IMG/VR virus record: IMGVR_UViG_3300034104_001908
Location: 1 to 31,894 of that record
Direction: 5' to 3' (one strand)
Origin: a virus
Length of the DNA: 31,894 nt
A program made the translations under genes and the position numbers. The notes beneath the pieces were generated by a model. The model was not told where the DNA came from, did no database searches, and saw only the letters and a list, made by a program, of their open reading frames with translations. Of this stretch, positions 2,620 through 30,085 are shown piece by piece. Each line of letters opens with the position of its first letter. Positions within the stretch are counted from its first letter, which is position 1.

Positions 2620-2660
2620 CAATGGGAGACAAGATTTTTCTTGTTTCCCATTGTTTTTTT
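2620..2660 (+). terminator. Intrinsic (Rho-independent) terminator after hsp20
   Basis: The left arm CAATGGGAGACAAG (2620-2633) and right arm CTTGTTTCCCATTG (2640-2653) form a 14-bp stem with a single G-U pair and a six-base loop ATTTTT, followed directly by seven T residues (2654-2660). This is a textbook intrinsic terminator placed 21 bases after the hsp20 stop and 40 bases before uvsE. Confidence 0.93.
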
Positions 2661-2699
2661 CCTTATATTAGAACTCACATTATTCATCATAGGATTGTT

Positions 2700-3617
2700 A
2701 TGAATCTCGGTTATGCCTGTATCAATATGACTCTCGGTAAGAAGAAGATTACCACCAACCGGTCAATGATAAAGAAAACATTTCTTCAACGTGGTATCAA
2801 TTATGCCGCTGAACTTGGACTTCAAAACGTCAAGGACTTGGAAACTATTATTCATTGGAACGTAGAGAACGGTATCAAACTGTTCCGTATCTCATCCGAT
2901 ATGTTTCCGTGGGCATCCGAGTACGGTGTAGAAAACCTTCCTAACATACAGGAAATTGCAGAGGTAATGAAACGTACAGGTGAGTATGTAAAGTCCAATG
3001 GCGTTCGTTTAGGGTGTCACCCTGGCCCTTTCAATGTACTCTGTTCACCGAATGAGAAAGTTGTTCAAAACACTATCGTTGACTTAGAAAACCACGCCAA
3101 GGTTCTCGACTTACTTCAACTTTCACATACACCATACAACAAGATAAACATCCACTGTAACGGTACATATGGTGATAAAATTGCAAGTATGCAACGTTTT
3201 TGTGATAACTATGACAAATTGTCACACTCTGTCAAATCGCGTCTAACCATAGAGAATGATGACAAAGCCAGTATGTATAGTGTCAAAGACTTGATATATA
3301 TCCACGAACGTATCGGTATTCCAATCGTCTTTGACTATCACCACCATACGTTCAACACAGGTGGTTTGTCTGAACAAGAAGCTCTTGAACTTGCTATGTC
3401 AACGTGGCCCGATGGTATTAGTCCTGTTGTTCATTACTCATCATCGAAACCAAAAGAGTCGGGTAATCCAAAAGATAAACCACAGGCTCACGCAGATTAC
3501 ATTTTGGAGAAAATAAATACTTATAATCATAATGTGGATGTTATGTTAGAGTGTAAGGCAAAAGAACTGGCACTACTTGAATATCGTAAACAAAATGGAG
3601 AAATTCTAAATGGATAA
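2700..3617 (+). CDS. uvsE: UV damage endonuclease (UvsE/UVDE family)
   Basis: The protein has 305 residues from the ATG at 2700. The family nicks DNA 5' to UV photoproducts and other lesions, using a TIM-barrel fold with a cluster of divalent metals. Family hallmarks appear in order: N-terminal NLGYACINMTL, RISSDMFPW, the HPGPFNVL motif, IHCNGTYGDK, the metal-binding ENDD, FDYHHHTFN, the VHYSS segment, a later AHADYI and a C-terminal MLECKAKE. All expected metal ligands seem present, so it should be active. An upstream in-frame ATG at 2622 is rejected: it lies in the stem of the terminator and lacks an SD, whereas 2700 has AGGA (2691-2694) five bases upstream and begins at the family's usual N-terminus. 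The 3' end overlaps the next gene by 8 bases. Confidence 0.93.
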   Translation: MNLGYACINMTLGKKKITTNRSMIKKTFLQRGINYAAELGLQNVKDLETIIHWNVENGIKLFRISSDMFPWASEYGVENLPNIQEIAEVMKRTGEYVKSNGVRLGCHPGPFNVLCSPNEKVVQNTIVDLENHAKVLDLLQLSHTPYNKINIHCNGTYGDKIASMQRFCDNYDKLSHSVKSRLTIENDDKASMYSVKDLIYIHERIGIPIVFDYHHHTFNTGGLSEQEALELAMSTWPDGISPVVHYSSSKPKESGNPKDKPQAHADYILEKINTYNHNVDVMLECKAKELALLEYRKQNGEILNG

Positions 3618-9285: not shown

Positions 9286-11046
9286 ATGCCAGTAACAGAC
9301 AATAATAAAGATAGAGAACTTTATAAGTCAATTAGTGGTGATCCAAATCCACCGTTAGATAATCGTATAGATAATTTCGAAGATTTATTAGATGCCGCTC
9401 AAGTAGGGGATGATTCACTCGTAGGAGAAACTAGAGGAATACGCGGAGGTCAAGAAGAACTATTTACTCCAGATGGTCAACAATCTGGTATTGGAAAAAA
9501 TAAAGCAAAAAATAAAGGAACTGCCTCTTCTGTTGGTTCTCCACCGGATGTTTATTTAGATTCAAAAGATAGAGAACGGGCGTTAAAAACTCCTTATACG
9601 GAAGATGATTTAATAAAAAAAATAAAAGAAATACCAGACCAAATGTTGCCAAGATATATAAAAAGTAGGGCAGAGATGATAGTTAAATCATTTGGTATAA
9701 ATACACGAGAAAAGGTTGCAAACTTTTTCGGACAATTAGCATCAGAATCACTACGTGGTTTAGCCGAATATGTCTATTATTCCAAAAAAGGAATAACAAA
9801 CTTAGGCACAAAAATGTCAAATTACAAAGAAGGTGATGAAGAAAAATTTTTCTATTCTGATAAAAACATAGATGATGGTATACCATTTGGTATAAAAACT
9901 CCGCCTTGGGAAAAAGGTGGTATGTTCGATACATACTATGGTGGTAAGTATTCTCCTAGAACTGATTTAGGAAATAAATTCAATAAAGAATCACTTGCAA
10001 AAAATGATGCCGGTGTAGTCGAGCCAGACGAAAAAATAAATGACTATACTGTTGATCCGGGTTTTTATAAAGGAAGTCCTGAAGGTTATGCGTATCGTGG
10101 ACATGGGGCTATACAAATAACAGGAAAGTATCAATATGAGAGAATGAATCAGTTTTTTGGTGTTAATGGAAAATACGAGAAAAATAATGTTGACTTTTTA
10201 GAATACCCTGAATTAGTCTCATACAACTGGAGAAGTGATTTAGGTGGTGGTCCAAATGGAAAAGACCAAAATAAATTCGCATTATTAAGTGCTCTAATGT
10301 GGTGGAACGACCATAAAGGTGTTCAAATAAATCAAGTGAGTCTTTCAACAACAACTACTATAACGAAGGCGGTGAGTAATAGTGAAAGTACGTCAAGAAA
10401 TCGTCATAAAAATGTAGAAAGATATTATGACTTTTTACTTGGAGGAACTGTTGCAAAATCATTGTACTCTAATGTAAATTATACGCCAAACAATTTTAAA
10501 CCTGGTGAACTAAAAACAAGAGAAGATGTGCCTCAATTAAGTGGTAGACAAAAATCTTCTATTTTTGGTCATATTGAATACGAACCTTTGGATAATGGTC
10601 GTGTACGAATTCTAAATAATTTTGAACAAGAGAATATTGTATTTGTGGAGATACCACAACTCAAAAAGTTTGGATATAATGGCACTAGATTCCACAAAAA
10701 AGGTGCAGAACAATTGAAACGATTGTGGGCAGAATGGCAAGAACTTGGTTTACTCGATGGTATATTGACATTTAGTCCGTCTGCATTTTCTCCAAGATAT
10801 TCAAAGGCAAAGGGAAGTCGTTCACTTAGCAGTCACTCATGGGGCGTTGCTTTTGATATAAATCAAAGATGGAATGACCTATATGAAACACCTGCTGCAT
10901 TGGGTACTAAAGGTTCTGTTAGAGAACTTGTACCTTCTGCTATAAAATGGGGATTTTTCTGGGGAGGTTGGTGGACGGGCACACCCGATGGTATGCACTT
11001 TGAAATTTCAAGAGTTCTTGACCCAAATACACTAAAATTTGTTTAA
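9286..11046 (+). CDS. Two-domain peptidoglycan hydrolase: GH19-like glycosidase plus M15 D-Ala-D-Ala peptidase
   Basis: The protein has 586 residues. Residues about 1-105 are charged and low in order. A chitinase-class/GH19-like domain follows (about 115-385): GQLASES with candidate catalytic Glu154 and YRGHGAIQITGKYQYE (from residue 270), which matches the GxGxxQxTG signature. A C-terminal M15-type zinc peptidase (about 410-586) has the ligands His517 and Asp524 in SSHSWGVAFD and His571 in DGMHFE, after a WGGWW segment typical of phage L-alanyl-D-glutamate or D-Ala-D-Ala peptidases. Together it would cut both glycan and peptide bonds. Its position between gp5 and gp25 suggests a virion-borne tail lysin rather than only a late endolysin. 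A good SD (GGGGAAATAA) precedes the ATG. No signal peptide is seen. Confidence 0.87.
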   Translation: MPVTDNNKDRELYKSISGDPNPPLDNRIDNFEDLLDAAQVGDDSLVGETRGIRGGQEELFTPDGQQSGIGKNKAKNKGTASSVGSPPDVYLDSKDRERALKTPYTEDDLIKKIKEIPDQMLPRYIKSRAEMIVKSFGINTREKVANFFGQLASESLRGLAEYVYYSKKGITNLGTKMSNYKEGDEEKFFYSDKNIDDGIPFGIKTPPWEKGGMFDTYYGGKYSPRTDLGNKFNKESLAKNDAGVVEPDEKINDYTVDPGFYKGSPEGYAYRGHGAIQITGKYQYERMNQFFGVNGKYEKNNVDFLEYPELVSYNWRSDLGGGPNGKDQNKFALLSALMWWNDHKGVQINQVSLSTTTTITKAVSNSESTSRNRHKNVERYYDFLLGGTVAKSLYSNVNYTPNNFKPGELKTREDVPQLSGRQKSSIFGHIEYEPLDNGRVRILNNFEQENIVFVEIPQLKKFGYNGTRFHKKGAEQLKRLWAEWQELGLLDGILTFSPSAFSPRYSKAKGSRSLSSHSWGVAFDINQRWNDLYETPAALGTKGSVRELVPSAIKWGFFWGGWWTGTPDGMHFEISRVLDPNTLKFV

Positions 11047-11538: not shown

Positions 11539-12033
11539 TTGGCACGGTTTAGACGAAAGAGTATAATAATAAATGAGCCTAGCTCTTCTATAAATTATTA
11601 CACCAAACCTATTGGTGTAACTATACCGTTTAATAATCCAAATGGTGTGTTCTTTCAAAGTTTCACCAGTAGAGTTCAAGTTTATTCTAATGTAAAAAAT
11701 CTTCTTTTGACTGCAAAAGGAGAACGATATGAACTTCCTGATTTCGGAACAGAATTGAGATATATACTTTTCGAAAATATATCAGATGAAGCAGAATTTA
11801 CTGAAAAAATAAAAGGTGAAATAATTGATGCTTTAACAACATGGATTCCTTATGTTGGTATTACTCAACTTGATGTAAACTTCAATATGGCGGAAGATGG
11901 ACGAGTCGATGACCCCACTCATGCTATTGGTATCTTCTTGGAATTGAAAATCGTCGGTACAAACATATATTTACCCATTCAGATATTTATATCTGATACA
12001 GGTAATTTACGCATTCAAGAGGCACAGAACTAA
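11539..12033 (+). CDS. 25: Baseplate wedge subunit, gp25-like
   Basis: The protein has 164 residues (T4 gp25: 132). This small protein is conserved in all contractile injection systems (P2 W, Mu gp46, T6SS TssE) and links the wedge to the sheath. The diagnostic core is visible: SRVQVYSNVKNLLLTAKGE (about residues 45-63), with LLLTxxGER, then LPDFGTELRYILFENIS, matching the PxFGxxLxxLLFE pattern. The start is TTG: no in-frame ATG occurs until far inside the domain, and GGGAG (11526-11530) is well placed. Its stop shares a base with the ATG of gp6, as expected for neighbouring wedge subunits. Confidence 0.88.
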   Translation: MARFRRKSIIINEPSSSINYYTKPIGVTIPFNNPNGVFFQSFTSRVQVYSNVKNLLLTAKGERYELPDFGTELRYILFENISDEAEFTEKIKGEIIDALTTWIPYVGITQLDVNFNMAEDGRVDDPTHAIGIFLELKIVGTNIYLPIQIFISDTGNLRIQEAQN

Positions 12034-13931
12034 TGGCTGATTTAGTAAAAAAAGATATTAGGTATCTCTCACGAGATTTTCCTTCGTTGAAGCAAAACCT
12101 TATTGATTTTGCTAAAAATTATTTCCCAGATACCTATCAAGATTTTAATGAATCATCTCCTGGTATGATGTTTTTGGAAATGGCGGCATATGTTGGTGAT
12201 GTTTTATCGTATTATACAGACACATCATTACAAGAGTCTCTTATTCTACAAGCTTCAGAGCGTCAGAACATTTTAAATATTGCACAGTCTCTTGGTTATA
12301 ATCCTAAAACTAATATTGCATCAAATGTAAAGTTGGATATTTTTCAAATTGTACCTGCAATAGATTCTGGTGTAAATAACAGACCTGATTATTCATATGC
12401 ATTTGCAATAGAACCAGGTATGGTTGTTGCATCGGATAATAGAAACATCACAACCGAATTCAGAACAACTGATTATGTTGATTTTAGATTTTCAAGTAGC
12501 ATTGACCCAAGAGAAGTTACTGTTTTTGAAGTAAGTGACATACCACCTTTTGAACCAACATTTTATCTTTTAAAAAAGAGTGTAAATGCTGTTTCCGGTG
12601 TTGTAAGATCAAAAACATATTCTTTTGGCGAGCCTAAACCATACGATAAAATAGAACTAGAAGATGTCAATATAATTGATATACTTTATGGTATAGATTC
12701 TGATGGTAACAAATGGTATCATGTTCCTTATTTAGCACAAGATACTATTTTTGAACCAACTCCGAATATTCCAAGAAATGATAGAACATTATCACAATAC
12801 AGAGAAGAAACACCGTATCTTTTAAAATTGAGAAAAATTTCAAGAAGATTTGTTTCAAGACAACTTGATAACGGTAAATTAGAAATTCAGTTTGGTGCGG
12901 GTGTATCTGATTTAGATGATGAATTACTGATACCAAATCCAGATTTAGTTGGAAATTCATTAACTGGTATTGATACATTAACTTCAGCAGATATTGATCC
13001 TTCGAATTTCTTGTACACAAAAACATACGGCCTTGCCCCAAATAATACAGATATTACAATCTACTATACAACTGGTGGTGGTATACGCGATAATGTTCCA
13101 AGTGAAACAATAACAAGATTGAAATCTCGTTCTATTATTTTAGATGAAACGGGTTTGGACTTGACTCTATATAACCAAGCTCTTGGAAGTCTCGCTGTAA
13201 CAAACCCAGAACCTGCATCTGGTGCAAAACAGGGCGAAACTACCGACGAAATCCGTCAGAACGCACTTGCTTACTTTGCATCACAAAATCGTGCAGTAAC
13301 AAAAGAGGACTATATTATTAGAACGTATAGTCTTCCACAAAAGTACGGTGCTGTTGCAAAGGCATACATCACAAAAGATGACCAATTAACTGCTGACTCT
13401 ATTTACAATTCTGATAGAGTTGCAAATCCATTGGCACTTAATTTATATCTTCTTGGATATGATTCCTATGGTAAGTTGACTAGAATAAACAATGCAACAA
13501 AAGAAAATTTGAAAACATATCTTGGTTATCATAGAATGTTGACTGATGCCATAAACATAAAAGATGCTTACATCATAAACATTGGTCTTGAATTTGAAAT
13601 CATAACAATGCCTGACCAAAATGGAAACCAAGTAATTCTCAGATGTATAGATAAATTAAAGCAATACTTTGACATTAAGAAGTGGCAAATAAATCAACCG
13701 ATAGTAATTAGTAACATATTTACTGAATTGGATAAGGTTCCTGGTGTTCAAACGGTTGTTGACGTTAGAATTACAAATTTAATTGATTCTGACGCAGGCT
13801 ACACACCAAACGCATATAACATACAACAAGCAACGAAAGATGGTATCATCTTCCCGTCTCTTGACCCATCAATTTTTGAAATACGTTTTCCAGATAACGA
13901 TATAATCGGTAAAGTGAGGGCATTTGGATGA
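12033..13931 (+). CDS. 6: Baseplate wedge subunit, gp6-like (baseplate J family)
   Basis: The protein has 632 residues (T4 gp6: 660). gp6 builds the inner ring of the baseplate wedge. The N-terminal part, with YLSRDFPSLKQNLIDFAKNY and MMFLEMAAYVGDVLSYYTD, then ASERQNILNIAQSLGY, is the hallmark of T4-like gp6. The baseplate-J-like core (about 385-560) includes GAKQGETTDEIRQNALAYFA and FASQNRAVTKEDYI, the family's E-xR-xxA and RAVTxxDY signature. The C-terminal domain (about 560-632) is typical of the long J proteins. It overlaps both neighbours by 1-4 bases, so the gp25-gp6 pair and the next gene are probably translationally coupled. Confidence 0.9.
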   Translation: MADLVKKDIRYLSRDFPSLKQNLIDFAKNYFPDTYQDFNESSPGMMFLEMAAYVGDVLSYYTDTSLQESLILQASERQNILNIAQSLGYNPKTNIASNVKLDIFQIVPAIDSGVNNRPDYSYAFAIEPGMVVASDNRNITTEFRTTDYVDFRFSSSIDPREVTVFEVSDIPPFEPTFYLLKKSVNAVSGVVRSKTYSFGEPKPYDKIELEDVNIIDILYGIDSDGNKWYHVPYLAQDTIFEPTPNIPRNDRTLSQYREETPYLLKLRKISRRFVSRQLDNGKLEIQFGAGVSDLDDELLIPNPDLVGNSLTGIDTLTSADIDPSNFLYTKTYGLAPNNTDITIYYTTGGGIRDNVPSETITRLKSRSIILDETGLDLTLYNQALGSLAVTNPEPASGAKQGETTDEIRQNALAYFASQNRAVTKEDYIIRTYSLPQKYGAVAKAYITKDDQLTADSIYNSDRVANPLALNLYLLGYDSYGKLTRINNATKENLKTYLGYHRMLTDAINIKDAYIINIGLEFEIITMPDQNGNQVILRCIDKLKQYFDIKKWQINQPIVISNIFTELDKVPGVQTVVDVRITNLIDSDAGYTPNAYNIQQATKDGIIFPSLDPSIFEIRFPDNDIIGKVRAFG

Positions 13932-16280: not shown

Positions 16281-19200
16281 ATGGCAAATTTTGATTATAA
16301 AAATATAGATGAAATTCTTTCAACCTCACTTCCAATACGTGGGGTAAGAGTTTCTTTGGATGATAACAGACTTTTAGAAAAAACAACTATACCTGTTACA
16401 ATAGACCCATCTGATCCAAAGTTAAACAATTTTGAATTTCATGTATTTTTACCAAACGGTGCATATATTTCTACCGTGTATAATGTCCAGTCATGGAAAT
16501 TAGACACAACATCTAACAATAATATAATTCTTGATATACACAGGGATATGAGAAGATCATCTCTTTTACCTGGTGTATATAAAGTTGTTTATAACTTTTT
16601 AAAAGATGAAGTTGGTGGATTTAATCAACCAGTAAAACTTTTTATATCGGATATATCACCTGATAGATCTGAATTAAAACTTTCTCTTATAAATCCAAGT
16701 TCAACAGATGGTCTTTCACAGTTAAAGAATTTTGTTTTAAAGTATTTGAACCCAACAGATTTAATACAATCGTATGTTCTTAACTTTGGTGAAAACAAAA
16801 TATCTAATATTATAAACGTAACATCTGATGGAAATCAACAAAGTTTTTATGTAAAACTGTACGAACCTCTTCCAGAAGATTTGGATATTTACGCTGAATG
16901 TTGGGTATCTTCTGAATATATGAAACCGTATATAGAGACGGTAAATTATATTGCAGAACAAATACCAGTACAGATACCAGAATTAAAAGGTCCAAACTTT
17001 GAAGTAGATTATGACTATTGGACAACTACTGAAACGGAATACAAATCGTGGAATGATATTCTTTCTGCAAATGTACAAACCTCACAGGAAATACTTGATA
17101 GATATATTTCTTCGAGTAATATCCCTGTTCAGTTAAATGTAAATTTTAGAGAATTTGAAAATTTCATTTTTTATTCTTCTGCCGAAGATAGAATAAACAA
17201 CTTTGTTTATAAGATGGAATTAATAGAACGTTACAATAATGAACTTTCTACTCTAAATACATACACTGGTTCAGTAAACACTAGTTCTATTGATTCTAAC
17301 AAAATTAAAGTAAAATCATTCCGTGATAAAACAATTAGTGGATTTGATAATTTTGAAAAATGGTTATACTATGAAACAACTGGTAGTAATTATTACACAA
17401 GCCAAGCAACCGCATCGGTAGTACCATATCCAAAATATGAAGTAAATCTAACATCGAGTGATTACAATATTGCAACCAAAGAAGGTAAGTATAAATTTTA
17501 TTCCTCTGGTTCAAACGAAGTTGATGAATGGTATACAAGAGTCATAGATTTAGCAACTGACTATGATTTGAAAAATTATAACGCTTTAAACAAAGCTATA
17601 CCAGAATACCTTCGAGATGATTCGGATAACGAACAATTTGTAACCTTTGTCAATATGGTTGGTCAACATTTTGACATAATGTATGTTTACACAGACCACA
17701 TTATAAAGAAAAATCTTCGAGAAGAACACCCAAAAGATGGTATGTCTCAAGACCTTATCTATGATGTTGCTAAGAATCTTGGATGGACGTTATCACACGG
17801 AACACAGGCAAAAGACCTATGGGAATATGCTCTTGGTGTAAGTGGTAGTGGAGAACCTGTTTGGAGTGGTAAAACAACCACAAACAAATACTTGGCTAAA
17901 TCGGAAGAAGAAAGAACGAAGGAAGTATGGAGACGTATTCTCAATAACCTACCTTACATTTATAAGTCAAAAGGAACTAGTCGTGGTATAACCGCTTTAT
18001 TAGCTGCATATGGTATACCACAAACTCTTTTAACAATTAGAGAATACGGTGGTCCTGACAATGCTGATTTAGGACAAATACCAAGAGCAGAATGGGAAAA
18101 ACATACATATTATTTATCATTCTCTGGTAGTAATCCATTACCAACACGTCAACATCATATTCAAGTGCCTTGGGAAAAAGTTTACACGGAATATGAGACA
18201 TGGCAATATCCAGATACCTTAACATTTAGATGGAGACAAGAGCCTGCATTATTATACTCATATCAAGCAGATCCTGTCCAAACAATCTTGCAAAAACAAT
18301 CTGGTAGTAGAGTTGATTGGTTCGTAACAGTTGACAAAAATGGCGGAACTGATTATGATAAAGGAACTCTTACGTTGTATCTTGGTAATGGAACAACATA
18401 TACTTCTGCATCTATAACCGATGAATATCTATATGATGATATTCCTCTTAATATCATGATTAGACGAAATGTAACCAGTGACTTAACATCGTCTAATCAA
18501 GTCTATGATTTTATTTTAAAAACAAATAAGTACGGAAAAGTTGCAGTCGAAAGATCCGCCAGTATAACTATTAACGGTTCTACAAGTGGTAGTTACAATA
18601 ATGCATGGTCATCGGATGGTATACTCTATATTGGTTCTGGTTCAAACCCACAGACAAATAAAATACTTTCAGGTTCTGTATTTGAATTAAGATATTGGAC
18701 AAAACAATTATTAGAATCATCTTTTGATAATCATGTTCTTGCTGCTCGTGCATATAATGGAAATACCGAGACATCTTCCTTCTATGATTTACAGGCTCAA
18801 TTTAAATTCTGGCAGAAGTTTGATGTTGCGGTCACAACAAGTATATCAAGTAGTCACCCAGATCAAACAAAGACATATTTTTCAAGTTCTACTAAGATGG
18901 CAACATTTGTTGGATTTGATGAGGGTGCCTTTGAACCGATAGTTGAGACATATAATATGCAAGTCGCAACACTTGGTAATAACACAATATACTCAGAAAA
19001 AATTCGTATAGATACTGGTTCTTTAATTGGCGGATTAAGTAAAGATTATAGATCAGAAGTATCTGCGTTTGATAAATTCTCGGTGGATTCTGATAAGTTG
19101 ATGATTGCATTTTCGCCACAGAGTGTTATCAATGAAGATATTTATGAATCAATAGGTGGTACAACACTTGATGATTATATTGGTTCATACAGTAACATAT

Positions 19201-20618
19201 CTGCAAATGAATATAAAGAACTTAAATGGTTGGCAAGACAGTATTGGCAAAAATATCCAAATAGGAATGATTTTACTGCATATATTCGTTTAATATCCAA
19301 GTTTGATTTTAGTGTTTTTGATCAAATTCGTCAAACATTACCTGCGAGAAGTAATCCAATACTTGGTCTTGTAGTTGAATCGAATATACTTGAACGTAAT
19401 AAAGTAGATGGCGCAGGTAGAATCTTTACAGGGACAACAGATTATACAGTAGAATCCAATGAGATTTCTTCATCTGCGCAAATTTTTCAGAAGTATGATA
19501 CAAACGTAGCTGTTGTTTCTGTTATCGGTGAACAAGACGGTGAAGTTCAAGATTTGGGTGATGATTTAGACATCCAACCAACTTTACCTTTTATAGTAGA
19601 ACAAAAAATTGGATTTATTACAGGTTCGTTAGTAAGTACAGAAGTTGATTATACATCTAATAAGCAAGGTGTTATAGGTTTGTCATTTGACACGAGTGCT
19701 TCCTATACTGATAAGTTAGGAACACTAGATGCCGATAGACTTGATACTAATATAGAATATAATTCAAAAACAACGAGTGTTGGAATATCATTTGATACGA
19801 ATATAATTTATAGTGATAAAACGGGTAGTATATCTGATAAAAAAGTAGAAACTTTAATTGATTACTCGAATAAAGAATCTTCAATATCTAAAATAAATCC
19901 TGATACAAATATTGATATTTCTCAAAAAAATGGAGAAATAAAACAATTATTGAATGATGTAAATATCGAATATAAGTCAAAAACAACTTTAATAAATGTA
20001 ACTCAAGAAGAATTCGAATCAATATATAATCAATACAAAGGAACGGCATCAGGATCAATTCCAAAAGAACTTGTTAGTTCATATAATTCTATAAATGGAA
20101 CTGCCGTTAATACAATAAGTAATTCTATAATAAAGGATGTAACCGGCACTTATAATAATCTAACCGATTACGGTAATTTTGAAATAATGACAACTACAAC
20201 GTATGATAGGTCTAATATAGTCCCAACTTCTAGTTTTCAAGATATTGGTTATGGTGGGGGATGGACGACTCAAAGTAACTCTAATATGAAATCACTTTCA
20301 TTTATTAATGTAATAACTGGTTCAAGAATTGATAATTTTTATAGTTCACACTATTTATTTTACACTAGCTCTATTAAGTATGATGCAAAAGACCCATATT
20401 CGTCTTCCTTAATTCAGTCAAGTGTCCAGAATCAACATAATTTGGCAACTGGTATGCGTCATCATAGATTTGAAGGAAGTAAACTAATAGGGCCAGATGT
20501 AAATGTAAATTCTGATAATACTTTGGATGGAACTCCCGTTGTTGAAGTGTATATTGTGGACTCAAAAGAAATAGTTTATAGAACGTACACAGACGGTGGT
20601 AATTTATCCGCAATTTGA
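16281..20618 (+). CDS. Giant baseplate/tail protein: gpI/gp7-like motif, lectin-like domain and seven-repeat segment
   Basis: The protein has 1445 residues. Residues about 1-470 are beta-rich and unassigned. Around 545-582 the text EVWRRILNNLPYIYKSKGT then SRGITALLAAYGIP matches the helical signature shared by P2-type tail protein gpI and related wedge proteins; gpI is the counterpart of T4 gp7, and the order gp25-gp6-gpI here mirrors P2 W-J-I. Residues about 610-830 look like a concanavalin-A/LamG-type beta sandwich (closing strands DGILYIGSGSN and GSVFELRYWTK). Residues 1120-1244 are seven 17-18-residue repeats (listed separately). The C-terminal 200 residues are Ser/Thr/Asn-rich. There is no SD ahead of the ATG, so its translation is probably coupled to the preceding gene eight bases upstream. 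The gp7-like role is inference. Confidence 0.72.
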   Translation: MANFDYKNIDEILSTSLPIRGVRVSLDDNRLLEKTTIPVTIDPSDPKLNNFEFHVFLPNGAYISTVYNVQSWKLDTTSNNNIILDIHRDMRRSSLLPGVYKVVYNFLKDEVGGFNQPVKLFISDISPDRSELKLSLINPSSTDGLSQLKNFVLKYLNPTDLIQSYVLNFGENKISNIINVTSDGNQQSFYVKLYEPLPEDLDIYAECWVSSEYMKPYIETVNYIAEQIPVQIPELKGPNFEVDYDYWTTTETEYKSWNDILSANVQTSQEILDRYISSSNIPVQLNVNFREFENFIFYSSAEDRINNFVYKMELIERYNNELSTLNTYTGSVNTSSIDSNKIKVKSFRDKTISGFDNFEKWLYYETTGSNYYTSQATASVVPYPKYEVNLTSSDYNIATKEGKYKFYSSGSNEVDEWYTRVIDLATDYDLKNYNALNKAIPEYLRDDSDNEQFVTFVNMVGQHFDIMYVYTDHIIKKNLREEHPKDGMSQDLIYDVAKNLGWTLSHGTQAKDLWEYALGVSGSGEPVWSGKTTTNKYLAKSEEERTKEVWRRILNNLPYIYKSKGTSRGITALLAAYGIPQTLLTIREYGGPDNADLGQIPRAEWEKHTYYLSFSGSNPLPTRQHHIQVPWEKVYTEYETWQYPDTLTFRWRQEPALLYSYQADPVQTILQKQSGSRVDWFVTVDKNGGTDYDKGTLTLYLGNGTTYTSASITDEYLYDDIPLNIMIRRNVTSDLTSSNQVYDFILKTNKYGKVAVERSASITINGSTSGSYNNAWSSDGILYIGSGSNPQTNKILSGSVFELRYWTKQLLESSFDNHVLAARAYNGNTETSSFYDLQAQFKFWQKFDVAVTTSISSSHPDQTKTYFSSSTKMATFVGFDEGAFEPIVETYNMQVATLGNNTIYSEKIRIDTGSLIGGLSKDYRSEVSAFDKFSVDSDKLMIAFSPQSVINEDIYESIGGTTLDDYIGSYSNISANEYKELKWLARQYWQKYPNRNDFTAYIRLISKFDFSVFDQIRQTLPARSNPILGLVVESNILERNKVDGAGRIFTGTTDYTVESNEISSSAQIFQKYDTNVAVVSVIGEQDGEVQDLGDDLDIQPTLPFIVEQKIGFITGSLVSTEVDYTSNKQGVIGLSFDTSASYTDKLGTLDADRLDTNIEYNSKTTSVGISFDTNIIYSDKTGSISDKKVETLIDYSNKESSISKINPDTNIDISQKNGEIKQLLNDVNIEYKSKTTLINVTQEEFESIYNQYKGTASGSIPKELVSSYNSINGTAVNTISNSIIKDVTGTYNNLTDYGNFEIMTTTTYDRSNIVPTSSFQDIGYGGGWTTQSNSNMKSLSFINVITGSRIDNFYSSHYLFYTSSIKYDAKDPYSSSLIQSSVQNQHNLATGMRHHRFEGSKLIGPDVNVNSDNTLDGTPVVEVYIVDSKEIVYRTYTDGGNLSAI
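19638..20012 (+). repeat. Seven degenerate 17-18-residue protein repeats inside the giant baseplate gene
   Basis: Residues 1120-1244 break exactly into seven units: six of 18 and one of 17. Examples are TEVDYTSNKQGVIGLSFD, TNIEYNSKTTSVGISFD, TNIIYSDKTGSISDKKVE, TLIDYSNKESSISKINPD, TNIDISQKNGEIKQLLND and VNIEYKSKTTLINVTQEE. The shared pattern is T-x-I-[DE]-Y-[ST]-x-K-x-x-x-[IV] with Asp/Glu at the unit end. Polar/aliphatic alternation suggests short beta strands, as in a beta-solenoid or a fibrous stalk. Confidence 0.85.
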
Positions 20619-21493: not shown

Positions 21494-22687
21494 ATGGCAG
21501 TTCCAAACAATTTTACATATAATTCAGGACGTGCTGAAGACAATTATGGCGTTTATGCCAATTTTGAAGAAGCCGGAATGGGTTCATCTATATATCCTAC
21601 CACAAAGAAAATAACAACAAAAGCTCTTTGGGGAGATTCAACTGGTGAACTTTTAACATTCTATACAAGTTCACTGCAAACTTCAAATTCAAAAGAATAT
21701 TTCTATGAAGTTTGGGGATCTGCTTCTCTAACTTGTGACCCAAATGATATAAAAATGTTTTCGGTTGCCTATGGTAACATAGACGGATCGGGTTCATTAT
21801 TATCAACCGGAGGACAAGCTGGAGACACACCATCTCGTGCAATATACGGTCAATACAGATCTATGTGTTTGGAAACAAATCCAACACAGAGTGATGCAAC
21901 TGGTGCACCAACATCATTTACACTTGCTAATGGTAAGGTTGTAAATCATTTTTATGCTATTAATTTTTATCGTGCAAGAGTTGGTGATAAACTTGATCCG
22001 GGTAACTTTGAATTGAATATTGCTGAATTGAGTGGAAGTGGATTTGCTAACAATGTCCACACAGGAAGTAATGTGATTGTGAAAAGTGGAGGGAATATAA
22101 TATCACTTATCGATGATTCTTCAGATGCTAATGAATCATTTGGTTACGTCGGTATGCCTTCTCCGGTAAGAAATCTTGTGAGTGGTTCTATAACAGAAGG
22201 TATTTATAATCCATCCGCACCACATTATTATGGTCTTGTTTATTTAGACCAAGCTTCAATTATCATAGATGCAGATAAATTAAATCAATCTGGTTCATTT
22301 AATACAGTAACTGGTAGTAACATATCAGGTGATAACTCATTAAAACTATTTACATCTATAAGTGGATCTGGTGTTCAAGGAACTGGAAATGGATTTTTTG
22401 CTAGAAGTGTAAATGTTACTGAATGTTCTTATTACTATATTAGAGTAAGACCAACAAGTATGAACTATTCAAATAATCCAACATTTGTTAGTTCTTCGGC
22501 TGATCCAAACTCTATCGTAAAAAATACAATTAGAAACAGGACTTTTAGAAATGACCCAACAGTATATGTGAGTTCAATCGGATTATACAATGAAAATCTT
22601 GAATTACTTGCAATTGCTAAGATGAGCAAACCAATTCGTAAGGACTATAATAACGAACTATCTGTTACAGTAAAACTGGAATACTAA
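21494..22687 (+). CDS. Array paralogue 1: virion protein consisting almost wholly of the shared C-terminal module
   Basis: The protein has 397 residues. From about residue 32 to the end it is one copy of a module shared with the next genes. Landmarks in order: ITTKALWGD, FYTSSLQ, FSVAYGN, RAIYGQYR, FYRARVGDKLDPGNFELNI, LIDDSSD, VSGSITEGIYN, GSFNTVTGSNISGDN then LKLFTSISG, YYYIRVRP, MNYSNNPTF, and finally VYVSSIGLYNENLELLAIAK followed by MSKPIRKDY. Only 30 residues precede the module, so this may be its minimal form. The function is unknown; the family looks like baseplate-peripheral or tail-fibre-related proteins of T4-like phages of aquatic bacteria. GAGG is well placed before the ATG. The paralogue that follows starts three bases after this stop. 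Confidence 0.78.
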   Translation: MAVPNNFTYNSGRAEDNYGVYANFEEAGMGSSIYPTTKKITTKALWGDSTGELLTFYTSSLQTSNSKEYFYEVWGSASLTCDPNDIKMFSVAYGNIDGSGSLLSTGGQAGDTPSRAIYGQYRSMCLETNPTQSDATGAPTSFTLANGKVVNHFYAINFYRARVGDKLDPGNFELNIAELSGSGFANNVHTGSNVIVKSGGNIISLIDDSSDANESFGYVGMPSPVRNLVSGSITEGIYNPSAPHYYGLVYLDQASIIIDADKLNQSGSFNTVTGSNISGDNSLKLFTSISGSGVQGTGNGFFARSVNVTECSYYYIRVRPTSMNYSNNPTFVSSSADPNSIVKNTIRNRTFRNDPTVYVSSIGLYNENLELLAIAKMSKPIRKDYNNELSVTVKLEY

Positions 22688-22690
22688 CAT

Positions 22691-23797
22691 ATGGCAGAAA
22701 TGACAGCAGCGGAACTTGCTCAAGTTTCTAAAACTTTGAGAATGGGTAGAACTACTACTCCATTTATAGAAGACACAGATATACTTGACGGACAAAAGGA
22801 GATTGTAACTGCACCACTATGGTCAAATAATCAATCTGCTCTTTTCAACATTTATACAAGTTCTGCACAAAGTAGTAATCAAAAAAGATACTACTATGAA
22901 GTAATGAATACTTCTTCAAATTCAATATCTGCTGAAACTCAGTTTAGTGTTACATATGGTGATTCTCCTGGAAGTGGTTCAGATAGAGGCACGGGTAATA
23001 TAGACGATTATCCAACAAAGGCAATATACAAGCAATATAAACAGATATTGTTAAATGAAAACGAATCCGTTTTTAAATTCAAAAATGAAGAAACATCAGA
23101 GTATATTTATGTTGTAAATGTAAATAGAACACGATTTAAAGATAGAATGGACACTAGCAATTGGCAACTTTCAATATCAAAATTGACATCTGCTGGTAGT
23201 TCATCAATCGGATCCCCAGCTGATGTAATAACCTTAATTGATGATTCTGGTACATCAACTCTTGAATATAATACTGGTGCAAATCGTTCTTATTATGTTA
23301 GAAGTGGTTCTATAACAAATGGTATATATACTGGTGATACAACGCCTTGGGGTAACTATTATCCGGACAGTGGTATAATTGTATTAAATGGTAAAGCTCT
23401 TGACGCATCCGCATCATTTAATACTAACAGATCACCATCTACTGGAAGTATACATCAACAAAATGCTCTACGATTATTTACCTCAATAAGTGGTGCCATG
23501 ACTTATAATACTTCATCATATGCTTTTCAAGGAAGAACAAGTGAAGTCATAAGTTCGAAATACTACTTCGTCAGATTATTTAATGGAGAACATAATTACT
23601 CCACTAATCCAACATTCATTACTGGAAGTTTTGGTGTATTAAAATATCGTTCAATGATAAATGACCCAGTTGTTTACATTACAACTATTGGTTTGTACGA
23701 CGATAATGCAAATCTCCTAGCCATTGCAAAATTAAGTAAACCTATTGCCAAGTCTTTTGATAAAGAAGTAGTGGTTAAGGTTAAGATTGATTATTAA
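22691..23797 (+). CDS. Array paralogue 2: shared-module virion protein
   Basis: The protein has 368 residues and is full-length homologous to paralogue 1. It has the same landmarks: APLWSNNQSALFNIYTSS, FSVTYGDSPGSGS, KAIYKQYKQ, VVNVNRTRFKDRMD, LIDDSGTS, VRSGSITNGIY, ALRLFTSISGAM, YYFVRLFNGEHNYSTNPTF and VVYITTIGLYDDNANLLAIAK. It differs where paralogue 1 has DPGNFE (here DTSNWQ) and FNTVTGSN (here FNTNRSPSTG), so the copies are old. The SD is weak, and the start lies three bases after the previous stop, so coupling is likely. It probably assembles with its paralogue into a heteromeric appendage, but that is inference. Confidence 0.78.
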   Translation: MAEMTAAELAQVSKTLRMGRTTTPFIEDTDILDGQKEIVTAPLWSNNQSALFNIYTSSAQSSNQKRYYYEVMNTSSNSISAETQFSVTYGDSPGSGSDRGTGNIDDYPTKAIYKQYKQILLNENESVFKFKNEETSEYIYVVNVNRTRFKDRMDTSNWQLSISKLTSAGSSSIGSPADVITLIDDSGTSTLEYNTGANRSYYVRSGSITNGIYTGDTTPWGNYYPDSGIIVLNGKALDASASFNTNRSPSTGSIHQQNALRLFTSISGAMTYNTSSYAFQGRTSEVISSKYYFVRLFNGEHNYSTNPTFITGSFGVLKYRSMINDPVVYITTIGLYDDNANLLAIAKLSKPIAKSFDKEVVVKVKIDY

Positions 23798-23802
23798 TCA
23801 CG

Positions 23803-26800
23803 ATGGCAATGGTTCCTCAAAATATGACCCCTGTATATGACGGAGCGGGTAAGCTGATAGGTTATACCCGTAGCCTTCCTAATGTTGCATATATTGTAAT
23901 GGAAAATAATGCAGCAACATTTTACTCAGAAGATGGTTCCATGATAATGAGAAATCCATTAACACCGGAATTATTACAGAACCTAGAATACAAAGTAATG
24001 GATTCATACGGGACGGATGGACCAAATTCATATGAATATCCATCGGGTGATACGAGTGTCCCAATTATAGAAAATCCCGTTATAGTTACAAATACACCTA
24101 TAATATTGGATAGGACAAAAATAATACAAACCGATATTGGTGGAGAACCGACCATATCAAGTATACGATCATCAACATCTGGAACTGGTGGAACTGGTGG
24201 AACTATTGGAACAAATCCTCCACCATGGGATCCATCAAAACCATGTCCTACTGTCTTACGTTTAGACTATAAAATTAATAGCGACTATGCAATTGATTTA
24301 TCAGAAATTGCAAAAGAAGTACAAGATTTCATTAGTATTACCGGTGCAAGGCCGTCTGAAACTATTGAAAATGGTAGAACTGTAAGAAAATATATTATAG
24401 ACCCGTGTGTATTTTTAAGAAATGCAAAAATACCATCACAGGCCATACTTGACATATATAACTCAACAACCGATAAAGGTGGAAGTACATTACGATTTGA
24501 AGCCGATATAAATTCATCGGTGACAAAAAACATCAGTATTCGTGATGGTTTAACTGATTATAATGCAAGACCCACATATTTTGATAGATTATGTGATTTA
24601 ATGCAAAAACAAAGTTTTAGCAACGGTGTTAAAACTACTGACATGTATGTTGTATTTGATTATGAATACACAGATAGAGCTGGTATTGTACATAGAGTTT
24701 ATTTTACTGCAAGAGTTTATATAGATGCAAATGGAAGATGTGTTTGCGTAAAACAAACACTTGAAAACTGTGACTGTAAAAAATACACTTTAAGTTTAAG
24801 AAACTTACGAGTAGTTAGTGAGCCAGGTCAAGGGTTTGATTACTCAACAACACATGATCCAAGTAGTCCTTGGTATAATAGAAATCTACCAGCCGATAAA
24901 CAAAAAGTTTGTTTCTTAAAATCGGATGTATGGAGATGTTGTATTAACAGTGCCGGTGAAGTTATCGGTTCTGAAAAAGTTGGTGAAATACTACTTGGAA
25001 AATCATACCAGTCAACTGAATGGGTTGATTGTATAATAAATGGTGTAGCTGGTAAAAAGATAAAAGTAACACAATACTTTTTGATGGAAGATTTTAAAGA
25101 TGGGGCATTTTTACAATTTAGATTTGATTCTGTATTTAAATCAAGACCAAGAAATGTTTCATTTAAGTTTCCAACTGCTGATTTAAGAGGTGATGAATAT
25201 TACATAAACCAAAGAAATGATTTATATTGGTCTGATTGTGACAGTTCTGTAAAATCGACTTGGGGCGATTACATCTCTCAAAAATTAATTGGAGTTACCG
25301 ACGGAACAATAAAAGAGTTTATTCAATATTTTGCAGATATAACTTCTGGAACAAATAGAAAAGTAAACAATAGACCTTTATGGAGACCGGGTGGTTCAAT
25401 AGTTCAGAATGGAGTATTGACATCAAATCCATCCGAATTATCACTCGTACTAACTTGTGGTTCTGATGAAGGCGATTGTATTCCAGAGCCAGTAACACCA
25501 CCACCAACCGCAAAGGAACCAACAAAGTATTGTGTTATCGTTGATTCTTTCCAGAAGGCAAATGAAATAGATTCTGGACAACACGTAATATCTGACGGTC
25601 CAAGAAAAGGTGAAATACTACCGGCGTATACTGGTGGAAGAAATACTGGCGGTCTTTGGATTGCCGGTGGCATACGATACGGTAATGTAGTTTATGATGG
25701 TATAAATCCAGATGGATTTAATGCTCTTACAAAATTTATTGAATTTTCAAAAACATTTGTACCCGGTCCAACATCAACAACACGAGGCAACAGAGTAAAT
25801 CTTGCATCAGAAGGATTACCATGTGAAACTGGTATTTTTGAAACAACAACAAGTTCAAATATAGAACAATATCAAAAGTATAGAATTTGTTATACTATAA
25901 GTGAAGAGACAGGAAAAGAAGGTAGACTTATAGATGTTCAAATTCAACCAGGAAATGCTGGAACATTTAATGGAAACACAATATTTTCGAATGGTACACC
26001 AATTCTTGATCCAAATTCAAGAGAATACGATCCAAACGGTGGTTGTTGTGAACGTTTAACTTGGCCTGACAATTGGGTTCGTAATAAAGATTATGTAGTT
26101 CCTGGTGCATCAATTATCCAATCACTAAATATGCCACCGGCAAATACACCGTATCTTGATTATGATGCATCTAGTGAAGAACTAATCATGAAAGATAGTT
26201 GTGGTTGCGAAATGATTCCAATTGCAGATATTTGGTGTTACTATAATGGTAGTAAAAAGTTCAAGTGGAGATCAAAAAATGTAAATGATCCAACAACACA
26301 CACAGGAAAACCAATTGCAGTACCAGATGAAAGATGTATTGGCGACGGAGCAAAGGTATTCCATCCATTTGATATAAGAAAAGATATATCTTATTCTGTT
26401 AGAAAGGATAAAACATCAGGTTTATTTGATGGAGAACAAAGTTTAAATTGTTATTTAACTTCTTCATTTACATCACCAAATGTAAAATCTTTTTACTATG
26501 CCGTAAATGATTGTTTGGACTGTGCAAAATCACCTTACTTTACTGTATCTTATGGTAATTATAAGGGATCGGGTTCTCTAACCGTAAACTCCGACCCAAA
26601 CAACACAAAAACATATTCAGATGCAGTTTATTCTCAGCATCAATTGTTATGTAACGAGGCATCTCGTTCAATAGATGGAATTTTAACACTTCCTAAATTT
26701 ACATTTGTAAGTGAAAGTGTTCAAATAGAATCTGATGATATTTACGTTGTAAATTTTTACAGAGCAGGTCTTTCTGATAAGTTGGATCCGGGTAATTTCC

Positions 26801-27465
26801 AAATCAATATGTCATATTTAAGTGGAAGTTTTTACTCAAATAGTGTACATACTGGAAGTAATGTCAAGGTTGGAAGCGGTCGTATAATGCAGTTTATTGA
26901 TAATTCGGATGATTTTTCACAAAGATACTTGTGTGAAGATGATGTTCTAACAAGTTATGATATAGTCTCTGGTTCTCTTGAAAACGGAAAATATCAAGAC
27001 GCATCTATCAACTCTTACGGTAGAGTATATCCATCACTTGGTGTAGTAGTATTTCACCCTAAACGATTAAACGAGATTTTAGGATTTAACACGGTAACTG
27101 GAAGTAATATCGCAGGTGATAATGCATTCAAATTATTTACATCAATAAGTGGTGCAGCCGCACCAACAACAGGAAGAACAGAACTCCATCCAATGTTGGC
27201 AAGGAATGTAAACTATAAAGTAACACATCATTATTCTGTACGACTTTATAAAGGACAATCAAACTACAGTAATAATCCAACATATGTAACTGGTTCAAAG
27301 AATAGAATATTTGATAAATGTTTTATAAATCAACCACAAACGTATGTTACTTCTGTTGGTTTGTATAATGAAAACCTTGAACTATTGGCGGTTGCTAAAC
27401 TAACTAGACCTCTTAAAAAAGACTTTGACAGTGATTTGTTAATTAAGATACGGCTAAATTGGTAA
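23803..27465 (+). CDS. Array paralogue 3: large Cys-rich virion protein with C-terminal shared module
   Basis: The protein has 1220 residues. Residues about 860-1220 are the shared module (KLDPGNFQINMSYLSGS, FNTVTGSNIAGDN, FKLFTSISGAA, QSNYSNNPTYVTGS, TYVTSVGLYNENLELLAVAK). The N-terminal 860 residues are beta-rich with a Gly/Thr linker (about 127-140, from a 9-bp tandem repeat) and unusually many cysteines: about 29 in the whole protein, including CVC and NCDCKK near residue 310-330, WRCC, GGCC and SCGC. The pairs suggest disulfides or bound metal. No known fold is recognised. Because neighbours have few or no cysteines, this may be a bound-metal or redox-sensitive part of the tail. It has no good SD and starts five bases after the previous stop. 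Confidence 0.75.
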   Translation: MAMVPQNMTPVYDGAGKLIGYTRSLPNVAYIVMENNAATFYSEDGSMIMRNPLTPELLQNLEYKVMDSYGTDGPNSYEYPSGDTSVPIIENPVIVTNTPIILDRTKIIQTDIGGEPTISSIRSSTSGTGGTGGTIGTNPPPWDPSKPCPTVLRLDYKINSDYAIDLSEIAKEVQDFISITGARPSETIENGRTVRKYIIDPCVFLRNAKIPSQAILDIYNSTTDKGGSTLRFEADINSSVTKNISIRDGLTDYNARPTYFDRLCDLMQKQSFSNGVKTTDMYVVFDYEYTDRAGIVHRVYFTARVYIDANGRCVCVKQTLENCDCKKYTLSLRNLRVVSEPGQGFDYSTTHDPSSPWYNRNLPADKQKVCFLKSDVWRCCINSAGEVIGSEKVGEILLGKSYQSTEWVDCIINGVAGKKIKVTQYFLMEDFKDGAFLQFRFDSVFKSRPRNVSFKFPTADLRGDEYYINQRNDLYWSDCDSSVKSTWGDYISQKLIGVTDGTIKEFIQYFADITSGTNRKVNNRPLWRPGGSIVQNGVLTSNPSELSLVLTCGSDEGDCIPEPVTPPPTAKEPTKYCVIVDSFQKANEIDSGQHVISDGPRKGEILPAYTGGRNTGGLWIAGGIRYGNVVYDGINPDGFNALTKFIEFSKTFVPGPTSTTRGNRVNLASEGLPCETGIFETTTSSNIEQYQKYRICYTISEETGKEGRLIDVQIQPGNAGTFNGNTIFSNGTPILDPNSREYDPNGGCCERLTWPDNWVRNKDYVVPGASIIQSLNMPPANTPYLDYDASSEELIMKDSCGCEMIPIADIWCYYNGSKKFKWRSKNVNDPTTHTGKPIAVPDERCIGDGAKVFHPFDIRKDISYSVRKDKTSGLFDGEQSLNCYLTSSFTSPNVKSFYYAVNDCLDCAKSPYFTVSYGNYKGSGSLTVNSDPNNTKTYSDAVYSQHQLLCNEASRSIDGILTLPKFTFVSESVQIESDDIYVVNFYRAGLSDKLDPGNFQINMSYLSGSFYSNSVHTGSNVKVGSGRIMQFIDNSDDFSQRYLCEDDVLTSYDIVSGSLENGKYQDASINSYGRVYPSLGVVVFHPKRLNEILGFNTVTGSNIAGDNAFKLFTSISGAAAPTTGRTELHPMLARNVNYKVTHHYSVRLYKGQSNYSNNPTYVTGSKNRIFDKCFINQPQTYVTSVGLYNENLELLAVAKLTRPLKKDFDSDLLIKIRLNW
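24181..24207 (+). repeat. Short 9-bp tandem repeat encoding a Gly-Thr linker
   Basis: Two exact GGAACTGGT units and a third imperfect one (GGAACTATT) encode GTGGTGGTI in the linker between N-terminal parts of the large Cys-rich protein. Slippage could vary the linker length. It is too short for firm conclusions. Confidence 0.6.
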
Positions 27466-27466
27466 T

Positions 27467-30085
27467 ATGGCTAAATGTGTTCTCGATCTAACGGACGTAG
27501 GTTCCTATGGTAATTTAGGAGGGGCATACGGTACATATCAAGCAGAGTCTATATTAATAGATTCTATTGCACAGTTGGAATTATTTAGATATAATGCACT
27601 AGAAAGAGTTCCTGGTGTTTTACCTTGGCCTGCAATAACCGAAATAGTTGTTGAAGACACAGAACTATATCCAAATAATAGAAACGGCGAAGAAGTAGTT
27701 TCTATATTTGATTTTATAGATTCTTTGAGAGACCCTATAAATCCACAAATTTTAAAAAAACGTTCAAGTGAATCAGTTGGTATTTTTTTAACTGAATTAA
27801 TTACACCAGTTGGTTTGAGTGCATATCCGGACGGTAGAATAAATTTAAATATTGTAGGTGGTGATCCGTGTAAAAAAGGATTTTATGGGCTTATTGCTGA
27901 TAAATTTTTAGAGAAAATACCTGTTTATGAAATATGTTATGTTCCAAGAACTATTGCATATTCAACATTACCAAGAACAACAATAGCCAGAGCCAAACGT
28001 GTTAGTGATTTAACCACTGAGTCTTTTGTAAATAGAAGAGGACCACTTGTAATATCGGATGAAATATCTATCCGTTCTGGTAAAGGTATTTCAATAATGG
28101 ATGATTTAGTTGCATGTCCACCAGTTGATCCTGGAATATTTTTTGCAACAGATATTGATTTTGGTGAAATTGAATCAGGTGTGGTGGATATTAAAGATGT
28201 TTTATTATATAATAGAACTTCCCCAACACCACCAAATACAGGTGAGATTACATTATTAGACATAACTCCAAAAGAACATCCAAATTTTAAAATTTTGGAT
28301 TTCAATCATGGTGGTGGATTTTCTCAATTAACAAAATCTCCATTAGATTTATCATCAAATCCATTGATTATGCCGGCTGTGCCAAATTCTCCTTTTTCAT
28401 TTGGTGTACAGTATGACCCAAAAGACGATTTGGGTGTTACACATCAAATGGAAATAACATATTCAGTAGAAACGAAAACAAATAAACCTGAAGTTGTAAC
28501 CCAAGAAAAAATAACAACCAAATTAACTGGTATCGGGTATAACGTTAATGTTACCTGTTCTGATGCAAATTGGGGACAAGTTGATGTATTTAATCTAGAT
28601 AATCGAAAAGAAATAACAATACAAAATACGGGTACAAAAGATGTTTATTTGTACGATTACCAATTAACATCAAAAACGAATGGAAATTTTTTACTAATTT
28701 CAAAATTAGATGTTTCCAAGAAAAATCCTATTAGATTACAACCAAACGAAATTTATCCTATTGTTGTAAATTATAATCCAAATGGCATAGTCGGCACAGA
28801 ACACACGGCTCAAATTAGATTTTATTTTGCATATGACCATCCAAAACAAGGAATTTTGTCTGGTGAAGTCAAAGGAACAAAATTAACATCATATCTATCT
28901 GGAATCGGATATAGTGATCCAATTGATGATGTTATAGATGATGTTACTGGTGTAGTAACCGATGATGATAATGGTATATTTGTAACAAAAGTATTATCTG
29001 TTATTCTTGACAAATCGGTGACTGTACAAAAAAATAGAACATTCCCTCTTTGGAATTGTGTTGGTGATAGACTTTTTGAAATTTATACTGGTTCAAACGG
29101 TCAAAAAATGGATAAATACTATCTTCCTATCTATAACAAACCAGTTGGTGAACACGGTTCACATCATCAATTTGACATATCATACGGCCATGTAAATGGT
29201 TCAGGTTCGTCTTATTATGATGGTAATAATCTGATAGAGCTGAGTCCATCTAAAGCGATGTATAGAAAATATTTGATAGAATGTTATGGTAACATATCTG
29301 GTTCTGGAAATATTCCAAAAAAATTCAAGTTTAGAAATAATGTTGAGAGTGATTCTGTTTATTTTATACAACTAGATAGAGATGACTACAAGGATATGTT
29401 AGATCCTGGAAATTTTGAAATCTCGTTAGTTCCAATGTCCTCTAGTATAAATCAATTGTATAACACTGGAAGTAATTGCTATGTAAATACTTCATCGAGT
29501 ATTGTTTATAAACTAATAGATAATAGCAGTGATACAAAACAAGACAGAACAGATAGAAGTGGTTTAGATTCATTTTACTATATTGTATCGGGTTCAATAC
29601 AACAAGGTATTTATGATGATGATAATTCAAATGCATGGGGTATGGTATTTCCTAAAATGGGATTAATTATACTTGATGGGAATGTATTAGACCAATCATG
29701 TTCATTTAATACAGTGACTGCTTCTATTGATGGGGATAATATTTACAAGCTATTTTTGTCACTTAGTGGTTCAATGACAATATCTGACGCAAGACCTGCT
29801 TCCGAATCAATGTATGCACGTTCAGCAGAGAAATCACTTATACAAACATATTTTTGTAGAGCCAACCCAGATGAATTTAATTACTCTAATAATCCAACAT
29901 TTACATCAGGTTCACTAAACACGGTAAAGTATCAGTATTTTATAAAAGAACCACGAACATACATAACATCAATTGGTTTATACAATAAAAAAAATGAACT
30001 TGTTGCAGTTGGTAAACTTAAAAAACCATTACTTAAAACTGATAAAACTCAATATGTATTTCAAGTCAGAGTAAGGATAATGTAA
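27467..30085 (+). CDS. Array paralogue 4: virion protein with ASH/choice-of-anchor-D-like Ig domains and C-terminal shared module
   Basis: The protein has 872 residues. Residues about 1-215 are a unique N-terminal part. Two Ig-like domains follow, about 218-358 and 360-482: FGEIESGVVDIKDVLLYNRT, then WGQVDVFNLDNRKEITIQNTG with the end motifs KLTGIGY and SYLSGIGY. The pattern of W/F-G-x-V, then IxNTG, then PI-x-V-x-F/Y-P, then GxGY resembles ASH (ASPM, SPD-2, Hydin)-type or choice-of-anchor-D domains. Residues about 500-872 carry the shared module (MLDPGNFEISLVP, LIDNSSD, VSGSIQQGIY, FNTVTASIDGDN, FNYSNNPTFTSGS, TYITSIGLYNKKNELVAVGK). Such Ig domains in a phage tail protein could bind host-surface sugars or space the module. 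It starts two bases after the previous gene. Confidence 0.75.
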   Translation: MAKCVLDLTDVGSYGNLGGAYGTYQAESILIDSIAQLELFRYNALERVPGVLPWPAITEIVVEDTELYPNNRNGEEVVSIFDFIDSLRDPINPQILKKRSSESVGIFLTELITPVGLSAYPDGRINLNIVGGDPCKKGFYGLIADKFLEKIPVYEICYVPRTIAYSTLPRTTIARAKRVSDLTTESFVNRRGPLVISDEISIRSGKGISIMDDLVACPPVDPGIFFATDIDFGEIESGVVDIKDVLLYNRTSPTPPNTGEITLLDITPKEHPNFKILDFNHGGGFSQLTKSPLDLSSNPLIMPAVPNSPFSFGVQYDPKDDLGVTHQMEITYSVETKTNKPEVVTQEKITTKLTGIGYNVNVTCSDANWGQVDVFNLDNRKEITIQNTGTKDVYLYDYQLTSKTNGNFLLISKLDVSKKNPIRLQPNEIYPIVVNYNPNGIVGTEHTAQIRFYFAYDHPKQGILSGEVKGTKLTSYLSGIGYSDPIDDVIDDVTGVVTDDDNGIFVTKVLSVILDKSVTVQKNRTFPLWNCVGDRLFEIYTGSNGQKMDKYYLPIYNKPVGEHGSHHQFDISYGHVNGSGSSYYDGNNLIELSPSKAMYRKYLIECYGNISGSGNIPKKFKFRNNVESDSVYFIQLDRDDYKDMLDPGNFEISLVPMSSSINQLYNTGSNCYVNTSSSIVYKLIDNSSDTKQDRTDRSGLDSFYYIVSGSIQQGIYDDDNSNAWGMVFPKMGLIILDGNVLDQSCSFNTVTASIDGDNIYKLFLSLSGSMTISDARPASESMYARSAEKSLIQTYFCRANPDEFNYSNNPTFTSGSLNTVKYQYFIKEPRTYITSIGLYNKKNELVAVGKLKKPLLKTDKTQYVFQVRVRIM

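Follow-up and report, generated by a model that had tools for sequence, protein, structure and literature searches.

An array of 18-residue units, varying in number among relatives, suggests an adjustable spacer in a phage baseplate-associated protein

The 1445-residue baseplate-associated protein P0001 of an uncultured phage contains seven tandem units of 17-18 residues at a place where its relatives have from none to about 16, and this range suggests an adjustable spacer that would set the reach of a tail part towards the host cell. With about even confidence, we read the array as a length-adjustable, beta-hairpin-rich spacer between a baseplate/lectin core and the C-terminal region, in which the number of units sets the reach.

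A seven-unit array in a baseplate-associated protein

The window, meaning the whole stretch of 31,894 bases analysed here, is IMG/VR record IMGVR_UViG_3300034104_001908. In this record a gp25-like and a gp6-like gene are followed by two open reading frames (390 and 391 aa) and then by the P0001 gene, and this genomic context makes P0001 a putative baseplate protein. The gene, its domains and its array are laid out as follows.

11539-12033, plus strand: gp25-like baseplate wedge gene (PHROG 261, E 4.6e-12; Pfam GPW_gp25, E 1.1e-5, slightly under the curated cut-off)
12033-13931, plus strand: gp6-like baseplate wedge gene (PHROG 219, E 5.4e-20)
16281-20618, plus strand: gene of P0001, an open reading frame with homologues in 75 IMG/VR loci
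17559-18062, plus strand: highly conserved helical part, residues 427-594 (mean column identity 85%, 36 sequences)
18099-18962, plus strand: laminin-G/concanavalin-like domain, residues ~607-894 (AlphaFold2 pLDDT mostly 82-92; VIA-align; Foldseek)
19602-19637, plus strand: half unit ahead of the array, residues 1108-1119 (circular profile alignment)
19638-19691, plus strand: unit 1, residues 1120-1137 (units 1 to 7 from autocorrelation split and circular profile)
19692-19745, plus strand: unit 2, residues 1138-1155
19746-19796, plus strand: unit 3 (17 aa), residues 1156-1172
19797-19850, plus strand: unit 4, residues 1173-1190
19851-19904, plus strand: unit 5, residues 1191-1208
19905-19958, plus strand: unit 6, residues 1209-1226
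19959-20012, plus strand: unit 7, residues 1227-1244
20013-20063, plus strand: degenerate unit past the array, residues 1245-1261 (circular profile)
20178-20615, plus strand: C-terminal region, residues 1300-1445, kept in most homologues in the alignment (AlphaFold2 confidence patchy)

Pfam and PHROGs gave no family match for the 1445-residue protein and nothing above chance level for those of its homologues that were tested. PDB sequence searches returned chance-level matches and no solved relative. An AlphaFold2 run on residues 409-1445 with 47 sequences produced a confident laminin-G/pentraxin-like domain, the remainder of the model being weak. In a VIA-align comparison, which covered the lectin part only and so says nothing on the array, the predicted structure of residues 607-894 agreed with the laminin-G/pentraxin fold (Z up to 15.7, 209 aligned residues, rmsd 4.2), and its Foldseek matches were neurexin LNS domains; by sequence, this domain had no match in Pfam.

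Bases 19638-20012, encoding residues 1120-1244, split exactly into units of 18, 18, 17, 18, 18, 18 and 18 residues. The BLOSUM62 autocorrelation of the array at lag 18 has a z of 6.3, which none of 2000 shuffles matched at any lag from 3 to 60, and when a wider stretch of 215 residues around the array was taken the best lag was still 18 (z 3.9; 0 of 300 shuffles). This split and period confirm the original observation of seven 17-18-residue units without remainder; its baseplate label is backed by the gp25-like and gp6-like genes closely upstream, and its placing of the array between a lectin-like part and the C-terminus by the laminin-G/pentraxin fold that precedes the array. The pattern proposed for the units, TxI[DE]Y[ST]xKxxx[IV] with an acidic end, stood in part: the acidic end is present in all seven, and the pattern itself is loose, with T1, Y5 and K8 each found in 6 of 7 units, I3, D/E4 and S/T6 each in 5 of 7, and I/V at column 12 in 6 of 7 (L in the remaining one). 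The further claim that no named repeat has this form agrees with our searches, since neither this array nor those of the homologues gave anything convincing in Pfam and PHROGs. Additionally, an array-only search of 50,697 phage records found no match, three array-only scans of IMG/VR returned nothing beyond the query contigs, a pattern scan of a genome collection gave 70 matches with no relative among them, and no description of an 18-residue repeat of this kind was found in the open-licence papers searched. Within that literature the repeat is thus undescribed, and it is probably used in a known way. At the DNA level, TRF reported no repeat in the window array and the best pair of 18-residue units is 52% identical; because its DNA is no longer visibly repetitive, the array is probably old.

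Arrays in homologous proteins

Whole-protein scans of IMG/VR returned 75, 80, 80, 40 and 80 loci on heavily overlapping contigs, which were reduced to 63 and later 69 distinct tails; furthermore, a relative of the 1445-residue protein is encoded in 358 of 459 pattern-matched stretches. The homologue alignment shows that the sequence flanking the array place is kept on either side, and arrays of 18-20-residue units occur at this same place in 15 of the 63 tails, a count made over related and hence non-independent sequences. Thirteen of these were recognised by a circular 18-column profile, which replaced an iterated single-unit HMM that had drifted to shorter domains and under-counted. The 13 score at least 46.9, against 27.3 for the next best tail and a maximum of 18.5 over 60 shuffles, the scores of the five seed arrays (window, L001, L006, L009 and L011) being high by construction. 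The other two arrays, recognised by eye (L021) or by eye and TRF (L022), have near-identical 20-residue units at contig ends and a profile score of only 12.5. A profile-free periodicity test ranked the same 13 at the top of 62 tails, with lags of 18-19 or 35-37; this test left out 7 of the 69 tails as too short and 17 of 238 loci as having no anchor motif.

In closed arrays the number of units runs from about 5 to 16-17, the upper end counting partial units. By circular profile it is 16-17 in L011, 9 in L009, 9-10 in L012 and L014, 6 in L016, 5-6 in L005 and L007, 4-6 in L010, 4-5 in L015, and 8-9 in the window when partial units are included; L013 has 4-5 and its contig ends soon after. Units of 17, 19 and 20 residues also occur among the arrays. 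In a tree of the conserved core (48 sequences, midpoint root, quick method, L021 included and L022 left out), the array-bearing sequences form one clade of 14 with an SH-aLRT of 99. Within it, L014 and L016, sisters on short branches (0.029 and 0.044, respectively), have 10 and 6 units, which confirms the expectation that copy number may vary between related phages. Absence of periodicity in homologues had been named as evidence against the array; most homologues outside the one clade do lack it, which dates the array and does not abolish it. The nearest named relative, Microcystis phage Mel-JY01 (50% identity), has no array (profile score 13.7).

Tandem copies of 54, 57 or 60 bp are visible in the DNA of L009, L011, L014 and L022, so duplication and loss of units seem to be ongoing. 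The contigs of L013, L021 and L022 stop at their 3' ends inside or shortly past the array, as expected if near-identical repeats break assembly. In L019, the tblastn match covers the whole protein, but matching open frames reach 750 aa at most, which points to a stop or a change of frame in that homologue.

Resemblance to a single upstream motif

Outside the clade the same motif is present as one unit, in a conserved flank upstream of the array place and about 48 residues past the anchor motif. Its place in the window, where it is degenerate, was located from the alignment.

19479-19529, plus strand: place of the single 'founder' unit, residues ~1067-1083

Among 46 array-free homologues, the founder place is the best match to the array profile in the whole protein in 24, within the top 5 in 34 and within the top 10 in 40, where random places give 2.7%, 8.5% and 16.4%, respectively (2 of 63 segments were too short and were skipped). 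In the reverse direction, a profile made from the founders was enriched in all 13 arrays, with L014 the weakest (3 against 2.4 expected). The founder place has itself drifted in three of the proteins, ranking 12 in that of the window, 8 in L001 and 20 in L011. As the motif sits singly upstream outside the clade, the array probably arose by tandem iteration of this conserved founder. A faint periodicity is also found outside the clade, the best lag being 17-19 in 9 of 29 array-free linkers of a thinned set; because of this signal, 'arose once' may instead mean 'was regularised once', and the arrays may derive from older degenerate repeats. The combined autocorrelation of these 29 linkers, which are not independent, also has a lag-11 peak (z 9.4) beside that at 17-19.

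Selection and fold of the array

Columns 3, 5 and 12 of the unit are hydrophobic in 32 of 42, 35 of 43 and 39 of 43 cases in eight non-seed arrays aligned with those columns masked, against an overall hydrophobic background of 239 of 792. Furthermore, three sister pairs give dN/dS values of 0.23, 0.13 and 0.26 within the array, synonymous sites being near saturation in one pair. The kept columns and these ratios indicate that the array is under purifying selection, and favour a folded or binding element. It evolves faster than the core (dN of 0.50 against 0.085 between the window and L001). The hydrophobic profile has a lag-9 correlation of 0.63, and this half-period is as expected for two strand-turn halves per unit. 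The beta moment stands out in some arrays only (z of 2.0 in the window, 1.5 in L011, 4.9 in L009, -0.6 in L006 and 2.4 in L014).

According to the spacer reading, the array would lie within a wedge-type baseplate protein, and each unit of about 18 residues would consist of two short strand-turn halves, with hydrophobic residues at columns 3, 5 and 12, a fourth whose column varies (14, 15 or 17), and turns near 8-10 and 17-1. The array would have a single origin, confined to one clade, in which the motif that homologues carry singly upstream was copied in tandem, and its unit number would go on changing through duplication and deletion. By holding the C-terminal region away from the baseplate/lectin core, the array would let unit number set the reach. 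The period, the position, the clade, the range of copy numbers, the resemblance to the founder and the purifying selection are thus observed, and the beta fold, the spacer role and the reach are inferred. By standard beta geometry the rise per unit would be about 0.95 nm for strands that meander across the axis and about 0.48 nm for a solenoid, so that seven units might span roughly 6.6 nm or 3.4 nm, respectively. A bolder version is considered less likely than not: the protein would belong to the baseplate of a contractile tail, and phages of the clade would adjust its reach to the surface layer of their hosts through a stalk of a new 18-residue beta repeat, gaining or losing units that derive from one conserved hairpin.

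Two AlphaFold2 monomer models give the array pLDDT values of 27-40 and 24-39; these lend no support to the beta-solenoid, which together with a fibrous trimer had first been suggested for the segment, and are no proof of disorder either. Two known folds were also compared with the array and rejected. For the triple beta-spiral, whose consensus was taken from the Figure 2 legend of PMC3150272, a 15-residue unit with the loop assumed at the unit end was used; hydrophobic residues did not follow positions c, e, g, k and m (the best of 18 registers had a mean of 0.57, with positions at 0.10, 0.45 and 0.38), and in that register Pro/Gly at the turn position j reached only 0.02. For the left-handed beta-helix the best register gave 0.38, 1.0 and 0.19, which departs from the hexapeptide pattern. 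In this fold aliphatic residues recur at intervals of 6, so that a coil of 18 residues has three.

The weak models and the kept columns bear on several other readings of the array. One of them, which we consider unlikely, is a mostly disordered polar linker of drifting length with a weak local strand preference. It would account for the low pLDDT, the fast evolution and variable length, and the polar composition (S, T, N and Q make up 37%), and hydropathy is near the order/disorder boundary (0.425 against 0.436 in the window, 0.372 against 0.426 in L009 and 0.456 against 0.448 in L011); however, hydrophobic columns are kept in independent arrays and dN/dS stays at 0.13-0.26. A similarly low probability is given to a trimeric beta fibre, in which hairpins from three chains would form a stalk (a beta-prism or similar) and single-chain prediction would fail for this reason. 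The strand-turn-strand pattern with fixed hydrophobic columns, and a monomer confidence that is low although these columns are conserved, are consistent with such a fibre, but none of the 18 registers follows the triple beta-spiral consensus and sequence searches of the PDB found no solved relative. T4 gp7 sits singly in each wedge, and if there is likewise one protein per wedge here, three copies would not be adjacent.

A monomeric beta-solenoid, with one coil per 18-residue unit, is somewhat less probable still. The regular unit length, the ladder-like conserved columns and the short strands 18 residues apart (1193-1195 and 1211-1213) in the first, low-confidence model would fit it, yet for a solenoid a single chain usually suffices to give a confident prediction, whereas pLDDT here is at most 40 in both models; units of 17, 19 and 20 residues and the departure from the left-handed hexapeptide pattern also argue against it. 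Least probable of all is that the units contact the receptor, binding host glycans or a surface protein so that their number alters avidity and not reach: a lectin-like domain adjoins, the other columns evolve fast and reovirus sigma1 offers a precedent in a sugar site between fibre repeats (PMC3150272), but the array has no recognised binding motif and its remaining columns are not common to the different arrays.

Relation to known systems

The spacer reading has parallels in several known systems. The triple beta-spiral of the adenovirus fibre and reovirus sigma1 is likewise built of strand-turn-strand units in tandem, each about 15 residues long with an added loop, that join an anchor to a distal domain in a viral attachment protein; unlike it, the phage array has misfitting hydrophobic positions and turn Pro/Gly, and no sequence similarity was found between the two. 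The periscope proteins of bacterial surfaces resemble the array in that relatives differ in their number of tandem repeats, which would determine how far a binding domain projects (PMC8201768); their repeats are folded SHIRT domains, whereas those of the phage are 18-residue units in a baseplate protein. As with periscope proteins, copy number differs here between close relatives (L014 and L016). Number-changing tandem repeats are also described in Campylobacter phage CP220, where they are ascribed to slippage or recombination (PMC2853527); unlike the array, they are of about 75 bp and, with a single exception, are located outside genes. In position, the P0001 gene is like that of T4 gp7, a large gene behind gp25- and gp6-like genes. 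T4 gp7 has 1032 residues against 1445 here, and no sequence or profile match was found between the two proteins (hhalign probability 0.1-0.3). In BFVD, the 1445-residue protein weakly matches a 'baseplate wedge initiator' of a cyanophage (E 0.12).

Our analysis provides a tree place, a founder motif and a natural length range for a repeat in a baseplate protein family that occurs on many viral contigs and is otherwise unannotated. Should reach depend on the number of units, the natural range from none to about 16 would offer a ready test of how the geometry of the baseplate is adapted to the surface of the host. A new fold would mean an additional fibre unit that is short and modular.

Other genes in the window

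Upstream of the structural genes, 2622-3617 encodes a UvdE-type UV-damage endonuclease (Pfam E 6.7e-64; PHROG 8420). A ClpP-like protease at 5515-6174 matches PHROG head maturation proteases, and directly before the baseplate genes, 9286-11046 encodes an endolysin-like protein of 586 aa with a C-terminal M15 peptidase domain. Five adjacent open reading frames (21494-22687, 22691-23797, 23803-27465, 27467-30085 and 30085-31836) have a homologous C-terminal domain in common (30-40% identity, E 1e-8 to 1e-71). Three of the five were compared with PHROGs and had no match; the set at 21494-31836 probably represents paralogous tail-fibre or decoration proteins. The last of them, at 30085-31836, carries the second laminin-G-like domain of this gene cluster (Pfam Laminin_G_3, E 1.9e-16).
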